Shown piece after piece: positions 16,568 to 19,086 of a stretch of 42,253 nucleotides of DNA. A model generated the notes under the pieces. The model was not told the origin of the DNA. It saw only the letters and a program-made list of their open reading frames with translations, and did no database searches. The DNA comes from Oleispira sp. (GTDB lineage: Bacteria > Pseudomonadota > Gammaproteobacteria > Pseudomonadales > Oceanobacteraceae). Made by a program: the position numbers and the translations under genes. Where the stretch lies: NCBI GenBank assembly GCA_002708475.1, contig PAOL01000074.1, forward strand, positions 1 to 42,253, given 5' to 3'. The first letter of the stretch is position 1. Each line of letters starts with the position of its first letter.

Positions 16568-17611
<1,044 letters not shown>

Positions 17612-17619
17612 CGCTATCC

Positions 17620-17647
17620 TTATCGCTTGCATATTTGTAAGCGATAA
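17620..17647 (+). other. Hairpin 1 in the mreB-mreC gap
   Basis: TTATCGCTT (17620-17628) pairs perfectly with AAGCGATAA (17639-17647). Two further pairs (one G-T) shrink the loop to six bases. The stem begins eight bases after the mreB stop. No T tract follows, so a processing or stabilising element is more likely than a terminator. Confidence 0.75.
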
Positions 17648-17653
17648 TTAGTC

Positions 17654-17681
17654 CTAAAAGCATGATTTTTCGTGCTTTTAG
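17654..17681 (+). other. Hairpin 2 in the mreB-mreC gap
   Basis: CTAAAAGCA (17654-17662) pairs perfectly with TGCTTTTAG (17673-17681) around a ten-base loop. It lies seven bases after hairpin 1. It contains the ATG of a 31-codon ORF and the in-frame GTG (17672) that would extend mreC, which would hinder initiation at that GTG. Confidence 0.75.
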
Positions 17682-17757
17682 TCGATTATTCCTTATTCTA
17701 TCTTCACTTTCCTTGTATAGTAGCAGTACGAAGATTCAAGAAGGATCAGGCTATTAA
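17662..17757 (+). CDS. Possible 31-codon leader peptide upstream of mreC
   Basis: A short ORF runs from ATG 17662 to TAA 17755-17757. It encodes a basic start (MIFRAFSR) followed by a hydrophobic, Leu/Ser-rich stretch. Its stop shares one base with the proposed AUU start of mreC (ATTAA), the geometry expected for translational coupling. Its own ribosome-binding site is weak (AAAAG) and its ATG is in hairpin 2. It may be a chance ORF; the overlap with the mreC start is the only reason to report it. Confidence 0.25.
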   Translation: MIFRAFSRLFLILSSLSLYSSSTKIQEGSGY

Positions 17758-18613
17758 ATCCCCCGTTGAAATATCCCCATTACGAGCATCTCGGCTAGTA
17801 GGCATACTGATTTTATCCTTATCACTTATGTGGTTGGACAGTCACAGCCAAATCTTTAAACCTGTCCGTTCTGCATTGGGTTATGTGCTTTATCCATTGC
17901 ATCAAATCTCTTCTGCTCCTTCTGTTCTAATTGATTGGTTTGGAGACTCCGCAAAGAGTCGTCAGCAGCTGATAGCTGAGAATGCAGAACTATCTGCCCG
18001 CAATTTAATCCTTGGGCAAAAAATCCAGCGTTTAATCTCTCTAGAGACAGAAAATAGCGAGTTGCGTGAATTACTCGGTGCATCAGATCGTATTGGTGAG
18101 CGCGTTATCGTTGTAGAGTTGGTTGCCGTAGATCCTGATCCGTTCAGTCAGCAAATAGTAATTAATAAGGGCCTAGAAGATGGTGTTTTCATGGGCCAGC
18201 CCGTTTTAGACAGCCATGGCTTAATGGGACAAGTTATTGATGTATTGCCTCATAGCAGTCGTGTTTTATTAATTGCTGACTCAAACCACGCGATTCCCGT
18301 GCAAATTAACCGCAATGGAGTAAGGGCCATTGCTGTTGGTTCAGGGAAGTTAAATGAACTTAACCTTGTGTACGTGCCTGATACAGCAGACATTAAAGAA
18401 GGTGACTTATTAGTGAGTTCTGGCCTAGGTGGTCGCTACCCTCGTGGTTACCCCGTTGCATCGGTGGCAACCGTAGAGCACTTTCCTGGAAAAGCTTTTG
18501 CCGTAGTAAAAGCGATACCTAGCGCTCACTTAGATCGTAGTCGACATATGCTATTAGTTTTTAGTGACAAGGTAAGTAATGTGCCACCTCAATCATTATG
18601 GCAGGTGAAATAA
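17753..18613 (+). CDS. mreC: Rod shape-determining protein MreC, probable AUU start
   Basis: A 286-residue inner-membrane protein that links MreB to the periplasmic wall-synthesis enzymes. It has a short cytoplasmic segment, one transmembrane helix (about 14-28), a coiled coil (about 70-110, with QLIAENAELSARNLIL) and the beta-rich domain with GLGGRYPRGYPVA near 225-240. The frame is open back to a GTG at 17672, but that codon lies in a hairpin without a good ribosome-binding site. The ATT at 17753 has AAGGA seven bases upstream (17741-17745) and gives an N-terminus that aligns residue for residue in length with E. coli MreC up to the end of the membrane helix. No ATG or TTG alternative exists between them. 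Gene identity is certain; the start is inferred. Confidence 0.93.
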   Translation: MKSPVEISPLRASRLVGILILSLSLMWLDSHSQIFKPVRSALGYVLYPLHQISSAPSVLIDWFGDSAKSRQQLIAENAELSARNLILGQKIQRLISLETENSELRELLGASDRIGERVIVVELVAVDPDPFSQQIVINKGLEDGVFMGQPVLDSHGLMGQVIDVLPHSSRVLLIADSNHAIPVQINRNGVRAIAVGSGKLNELNLVYVPDTADIKEGDLLVSSGLGGRYPRGYPVASVATVEHFPGKAFAVVKAIPSAHLDRSRHMLLVFSDKVSNVPPQSLWQVK

Positions 18614-19086
18614 TGTCGCTACGTGAAACGATCTTTATCTTATTTAGTCTCTGTTTAGGCTTCATTTTACAGTACCTACCACTGGCTGATTTTATGAGCT
18701 GGTTTGTCCCTCAATGGGTTCTAATGATTTTCATTTTCTGGCAAATACAAAAGCCTAAACTCATTAATTTCTGGTGGGTATGGCCCATTGGTTTACTGCT
18801 GGATGTTCAGCAATCTGATTTCTTAGGGACTTCGGTCGTGGCATTGGCGTGTGTGCTTTTCGTTTTACAAATGATGTATCAGCGCTTACGAGTTTTTAAC
18901 GTTGCCCAGCAAACTTTGGTCATTTTCTTATTGATCTGCAGCTTTGAATTGGTTTCATATTGGGCGCTTATTTTAGTTGATGACGTGAATAAACCTCTTT
19001 CTTTGTGGTTGCCTGCGCTTATTAGTGCTTTAGTTTGGCCTTGGTTGTATTTGTTATTATCTAGCATGTCACACAGGTTGAGATAA
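18613..19086 (+). CDS. mreD: Rod shape-determining protein MreD
   Basis: A 157-residue integral membrane protein with about five transmembrane helices, typical of MreD, a partner of MreC in the elongasome. The ATG at 18613 overlaps the mreC stop (TAATG) with AGGTGA just before it. An upstream in-frame ATG at 18598 would add five residues but lies inside mreC and is less likely. Sequence conservation in this family is low; position after mreC and the hydrophobic profile decide the call. Confidence 0.93.
   Translation: MSLRETIFILFSLCLGFILQYLPLADFMSWFVPQWVLMIFIFWQIQKPKLINFWWVWPIGLLLDVQQSDFLGTSVVALACVLFVLQMMYQRLRVFNVAQQTLVIFLLICSFELVSYWALILVDDVNKPLSLWLPALISALVWPWLYLLLSSMSHRLR

Follow-up and report, generated by a model that had tools for sequence, protein, structure and literature searches.

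mreC of Oleispira sp. very likely starts at an AUU codon, a start class found over much of the sampled Gammaproteobacteria

The mreB-mreC-mreD locus

The window analyzed here is the whole 42,253-nucleotide stretch of Oleispira sp. DNA, one of the 75 contigs of a fragmented assembly, which is 81.6% complete and probably a metagenome-assembled genome. Its forward strand carries the gene order mreB-mreC-mreD. The upstream gene, mreB (16571..17611, +), starts with ATG and matches PF06723 with 484.4 bits. The mreC coding sequence (17753..18613, +) has 286 amino acids when counted from an ATT codon, and its membership is supported by two MreC profiles that are both matched above their cut-offs (PF04085 with 142.5 bits, cut-off 28; TIGR00219 mreC with 197.2 bits, cut-off 92.75). 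Downstream, mreD (18598..19086, +) matches PF04093 with 48.7 bits; it has two candidate starts, an ATG at 18598 within mreC and an ATG at 18613 that overlaps the mreC stop codon. The closest named relatives of this MreC are found in uncultured Oleispira metagenome-assembled genomes, at 85 and 81% identity. Reading the translation and the alignment by eye, without a topology or helix predictor, we tentatively recognize a short cytoplasmic tail, a single N-terminal membrane helix (17792..17836, +; approximately residues 14–28 from the ATT) and a periplasmic domain.

RNA folding places two hairpins between mreB and mreC. The hairpin at 17654..17681 (+) is terminator- or attenuator-like, with an A-tract and a T-tract, and has a similar counterpart in L003 and L004. 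A scan for consensus terminators did not flag it, and it is no more than a possibility that it ends or thins transcription between the two genes. The second hairpin (17618..17647, +) appears in the fold of 17612–17800 and is partly refolded in a shorter fold. We found no sigma-70 promoter immediately 5′ of mreC in a scan of 17500–17900. Translational coupling of mreC to mreB was rejected, because the two genes are separated by 141 nt in the window; among the AUU-, AUC- or AUA-started mreC loci of the survey described below, the gap has a median of 77 nt and a minimum of 19 nt (95 of 102 loci, those with the mreB end found).

The start codon of mreC in the window

Upstream, the mreC reading frame extends without interruption to a TGA at codon −30, counted relative to the ATT at 17753..17755 (+). 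Between this TGA and codon +16, the only ATG, GTG or TTG is a GTG at 17672..17674 (+), which is codon −27. The ATT is preceded by a Shine–Dalgarno (SD) sequence, AAGGA at 17741..17745 (+), with a spacing of 7 nt, and its duplex energy with the anti-SD sequence is −5.5 kcal/mol, compared to −0.1 kcal/mol at the GTG. The GTG is also paired with 17661–17663 as part of the 3′ arm of a strong hairpin, and the surrounding 70 nt fold to −21.7. When MreC is started from the ATT, it aligns without gaps to the two AUG-started rows of a 14-row alignment, from the start to an invariant aspartate, Asp29; MreC of Escherichia coli likewise has an aspartate at residue 29.

We rejected a start at the GTG, which lacks an SD sequence, is paired within a hairpin and is separated from the ATT by in-frame stop codons in relatives. 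A sequencing error was also excluded, as the ATT is found at the same place in all four genus relatives with mreC and as ATT or ATC in all 30 family loci read. We conclude that mreC of Oleispira sp. very likely starts at the AUU at 17753, an inference from sequence alone, without protein or ribosome-footprint data.

The initial annotation had claimed that mreC probably starts at this AUU, that AAGGA lies seven bases before it, and that the GTG lacks a good ribosome-binding site and sits in a hairpin. All three claims held; the first is strongly supported and applies more widely than was supposed, its breadth across the order and class, including Pseudomonas aeruginosa, being absent from that annotation. 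The annotation had also named relatives with sequence conserved back to the GTG as evidence that would refute it. No such evidence was found, as four genus relatives have in-frame stops either 2 or 11 codons before the ATT.

Conservation in the genus and family

We searched five other genomes of the genus, of which four contained mreC and the fifth gave no mreC match. The four relatives all have ATT at the homologous place, behind AAGGA. In one of them, G002, the in-frame codons before and at the start are AAG GAT TAG GCC ATT. Because its TAG lies two codons upstream with no ATG, GTG or TTG in between, only the ATT can serve as the start, barring an odder codon. In the other three, the in-frame stop lies 11 codons upstream of the ATT. 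These three genomes (L055–L057) also have a TTG six codons before the ATT, where it could possibly act as a further start. As the start of the genus, this TTG was rejected for lack of conservation, the corresponding codon being TTC in the window and TTT in G002.

At the family level, mreC was present in 43 of 44 genomes and 30 loci were read. The homologous codon is ATT (18 loci) or ATC (11 loci) in all 29 in-register loci, while the remaining locus, L075, has an ATT one codon off the profile's register. No ATG, GTG or TTG occurs from the upstream stop to the codon in 21 of the 29. At codon +6, 17 of the 29 have an ATG or GTG, and the window has no canonical codon there. A start at codon +6 was rejected, as it has no SD sequence (a median anti-SD energy of 0.8, compared to −6.6 at codon 0, across these 17 loci).

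Survey of the order and class

To survey more distant relatives, we used evenly drawn genomes in which mreC was matched in 193 of 194 cases for the order and 252 of 276 for the class. From the better-scoring matches only, 140 loci were taken, one or more per family, a sample that leans towards the closer MreC proteins. The codon was read just before the conserved K-x-[LI]-F tail; a script aligned 130 of the 140 loci by their tail motif, and the remaining 10 were called by eye, with one unresolved. We refer to AUU, AUC and AUA collectively as AUH.

In the order set (69 loci), the start is AUH in 59 loci, ATG in 7, GTG in 2 and TTG in 1, and 35 of 38 families have an AUH start. The class set (71 loci) has AUH in 50, ATG in 11, GTG in 2 and TTG in 2, with 6 unresolved. 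Across both sets, 85 of 109 families have an AUH mreC start. The strict-register AUH loci number 102 (48 ATC, 43 ATT and 11 ATA; 55 from the order set and 47 from the class set), and the other 7 AUH loci are one codon off or were called by eye. The ATC loci are more GC-rich (median 0.605) than the ATT loci (0.499). At the same codon, ATG (14), GTG (3) or TTG (1) is present in others of the strict-register loci. In 4 of the 102 strict AUH loci, as in P. aeruginosa, a second AUH codon lies just before codon 0, and either may be the first codon.

The lean of this sample was offset by adding a divergent tail of 60 lower-scoring genomes. Three had no N-terminus in the match and one (L347) was out of register, leaving 56 readable loci, which by eye have AUH in 12, ATG in 28 and GTG in 7, with 9 ambiguous. 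We also read a set of 48 loci, reduced to 46 by dropping one without an N-terminus (L025) and one far relative (L053). Of these, 27 have AUH (Oleispira, Thalassolituus, Bermanella, Oleiphilaceae, Oceanospirillum, Cellvibrionales, Thioalkalivibrio and others) and 19 have ATG, mostly Alteromonadaceae. Among the records read, those of E. coli, Proteus, Aeromonas, Avibacterium and Alteromonadaceae show an ATG mreC start, while that of Acinetobacter baumannii is a GTG behind a good SD sequence. The data shows that an AUH start of mreC, although not universal, is common in the order and extends across much of the sampled class.

Two observations concern the records themselves. In Legionella adelaidensis (L244, 1135–2040), the annotated GTG start of mreC lies inside the end of mreB and the homologous codon is CAT, leaving the true start uncertain. 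In addition, several 4–5 Mb ‘plasmid’ records with mreC (H4, H6, H7, H13 and others) look like chromosomes filed as plasmids.

Sequence signatures of initiation at the AUH codon

Genes of the infC type meet two criteria that can be read from sequence: no canonical codon after the upstream stop, and a conserved SD sequence at proper spacing. The first holds in G002 and in 91 of the 102 strict AUH loci, where no ATG, GTG or TTG intervenes between the in-frame stop upstream and the codon; in 20 of these 91, the stop lies within four codons (2–4) before it. The window itself retains one GTG. The second holds as well, with 4–9 nt separating the end of the SD core from the codon in 97 of 102 loci (6–8 nt in 80 of 102) and with a dip in positional entropy at codons −4/−3.

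We calculated positional entropy from one AUH locus per family (80 families), where codon 0 begins with AT in all loci by selection. Upstream of codon 0, the entropy is approximately 1.9–2.0 bits, except for the GGAG peak at codons −4/−3 and a preference for C at −1. From codon 0 onward, a codon periodicity is present, with first and second positions conserved and third positions freer in most codons.

The SD energies point to the same codon. Their median is −7.3 at the AUH codon, compared to −2.4 further upstream and −1.8 downstream, and shuffles of the same 15 bases have a mean of −4.6. The first downstream ATG, GTG or TTG has a median SD energy of only −1.5 (n = 91). As a control, we read the start of mreB in 60 of these genomes and found ATG in 58, with 2 unclear. 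By eye, the ATG sits where expected in 43 of the 58 and one or two codons earlier in the other 15.

The start of mreC in Pseudomonas aeruginosa

The P. aeruginosa record CP123788.1 reads, in frame, TAG GAG CGG ATC ATC AAA CCG. The homologue of the window's ATT is the second ATC, which lies six bases after GGAG and has an SD energy of −6.9. The first ATC lies three bases after GGAG and cannot be excluded as the start. In the annotation, the coding sequence begins at a GTG 16 codons further on, which lies within the membrane helix and has an energy of −2.5. Based on sequence alone, we infer that P. aeruginosa MreC is 16 residues longer than annotated. The published interface residues (Pro114, Phe115, Arg175, Glu188 and Arg190; PMC8137920) all fit the GTG numbering (5 of 5) and none fits the AUC numbering (0 of 5); the same study assigns amino acids 1–14 to the cytoplasmic residues and the membrane region. 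On the MreC tree, the P. aeruginosa record lies beside G158, a genome of the window's order. CP123788.1 (L242, 1–1131) is itself an unusual record, a 1131-base ‘plasmid’ with only the end of a rod shape-determining gene and mreC, and is probably a mis-filed chromosomal contig.

Start class and Shine–Dalgarno strength on the MreC tree

The start class of mreC is clustered on the MreC tree (0 of 500 shuffles were as low), while the tree calls for no fewer than 21 switches between AUH and canonical starts, 7 of them forced by well-supported branches. The tree was built quickly, without a mixture model, and 64 of its 128 inner branches remain open; its sample was deliberately enriched for canonical starts, and 11 of 132 rows were too ambiguous to label.

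In raw counts, an SD energy of −5 or below is found in 50 of 54 AUH rows versus 19 of 67 canonical rows. After correcting for kinship, this trade-off is not significant (7 well-supported pairs, with approximately 3.5 for, 0 against and 3.4 showing no difference; median P-value 0.25). The labels of the divergent tail were assigned by eye, some of them with the SD sequence in view. Canonical-start lineages may more often lack a strong SD sequence, which would fit selection for modest output in both designs, a possibility that we hold tentatively as the trend is not significant on independent pairs.

Alternative explanations

Two alternatives place the start of MreC elsewhere. The AUH codon could be an internal isoleucine codon that is translated from an upstream start, such as the GTG at 17672 or the TTG at −6 in the three genus relatives. 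In its favor, no stop separates the in-frame GTG of the window from the ATT, and the TTG is present in L055–L057. Against it, the GTG is without an SD sequence and paired in a hairpin; stops are found 2–4 codons before the codon, with no ATG, GTG or TTG in between, in 20 of the 102 strict AUH loci and in G002; and the 80 families have neither conservation nor periodicity upstream, save for the SD site and the preference for C at −1. We consider this explanation very unlikely. It is also very unlikely that MreC starts downstream, either at the first ATG, GTG or TTG in or near the helix or at the ATG or GTG at +6. The P. aeruginosa coding sequence is annotated from such a GTG, the numbering in PMC8137920 agrees with it, and 17 of 29 family loci have a candidate codon at +6. 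However, the anti-SD energies do not support these sites, with a median of −1.5 at the first canonical codon (n = 91), −2.5 at the P. aeruginosa GTG versus −6.9 at its AUC, and a median of 0.8 at +6 versus −6.6 at codon 0 in the 17 family loci; the window, moreover, lacks a canonical codon at +6. If translation began in the helix, approximately 12 hydrophobic residues would remain, and the K-x-[LI]-F tail that these proteins have in common with the AUG-started MreC of E. coli would be lost.

The third alternative accepts the AUH start and asserts that it is merely a tolerated weak start, without meaning for dosage or IF3. The third base does drift (T in 43, C in 48 and A in 11 of 102 loci), with ATC in the more GC-rich loci; many other lineages do well with AUG; and there is no functional data. 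Yet AUG is only one base away, and AUH is nevertheless found in 59 of 69 order loci and 35 of 38 families, while the adjoining mreB starts with ATG in 58 of 60 genomes. On balance, we judge neutrality to be clearly the less likely account, though it remains a serious one.

Proposed mechanism and implications

Where translation of mreC starts, its codon class, its conservation and its SD pattern are shown by our sequence data; the consequences for MreC output are inferred. In the proposed mechanism, the good SD sequence would place the 30S subunit on the AUU at 17753, pairing the initiator tRNA at two of three positions. IF3 would discriminate against AUH codons, so that each mRNA would yield MreC at a low rate that depends on IF3 activity. 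The AUH start would then be retained in most of the order's sampled families, and in many of the class, since MreC must be produced in modest amounts next to MreB, which is AUG-started and encoded in the same operon. In lineages with a canonical mreC start, a weaker SD sequence could yield a similarly modest output. Rejection of AUU-type codons by IF3 is established for infC (Butler et al. 1987, cited in PMC5559785).

An AUU start combined with selection for modest MreC output is our favored reading, with a probability of about 0.6, where the low output, its benefit and the control by IF3 are all inferred. Physiological control of MreC through IF3 is possible, without reporter or genetic data to support it. 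The initial annotation had suggested a possible link between MreC dosage and the fidelity of initiation factors; this stays an inference, and nothing shows that IF3 regulates MreC. A bolder reading, in which a conserved IF3-gated mreC start extends over much of Gammaproteobacteria, can be entertained only as a possibility.

Prior measurements bear on the dosage of MreC. In E. coli, cells become shorter and wider when MreC is overexpressed, an effect of which at least the shortening is suppressed by MreD (PMC7793260). The same study cites ribosome profiling according to which, in E. coli with its AUG start, MreC synthesis is about twice that of MreD. Therefore, MreC is not scarce in every sense. 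If the bolder reading above is correct, MreC synthesis, elongasome activity and cell width would be coupled to the IF3:ribosome ratio, and hence to growth rate or cold shock. If the AUH start itself is correct, the cytoplasmic tail of MreC, which lies on the MreB side, has been omitted from database entries, that of P. aeruginosa among them, and gene callers limited to ATG, GTG and TTG will misplace the start of mreC. The mreC start would also offer a case where one-codon edits can probe why evolution keeps a weak start.

Comparison with known systems

Very few bacterial genes, mainly infC and pcnB, are known to have a conserved start of the AUU type. We found no report of an AUU or other non-canonical start of mreC in the literature that was searched, where many subscription papers were out of reach, and the sections of PMC4416010 and PMC2170320 that we examined do not bear on the mreC start; the remaining candidate papers were assessed from their titles.

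Like mreC, the gene for IF3, infC, has an AUH start behind an SD sequence, and peptides from Xanthomonas show that ATT is the only possible infC start there (PMC5559785). In the window's own genome, infC (L235) has an AUC start, with no ATG, GTG or TTG between the AUC and a stop three codons upstream. Two of five genus relatives show the same arrangement, and the other three have an additional TTG, two codons ahead of the AUC. AUH initiation is therefore probably in use in this genome. The two genes differ in their regulation, as infC feeds back on its own start via IF3. MreC is a membrane scaffold that is not known to have a role in initiation, and thus any control by IF3 would be open-loop, unlike that of infC.

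In E. coli, pcnB, the gene for poly(A) polymerase I, starts with AUU and its protein is held at a low level; it is a different gene in a different operon. The mreC gene of E. coli shares with the window the homologous start position, the tail (K-P-I-F-S-R-G-P-S) and the mreB-mreC-mreD order, and differs in its AUG start with a weak SD sequence (−3.0). By inference from its sequence, mreC of Oleispira sp. and its AUH-started relatives would join the small class of genes with conserved AUH starts, for which infC is the model.
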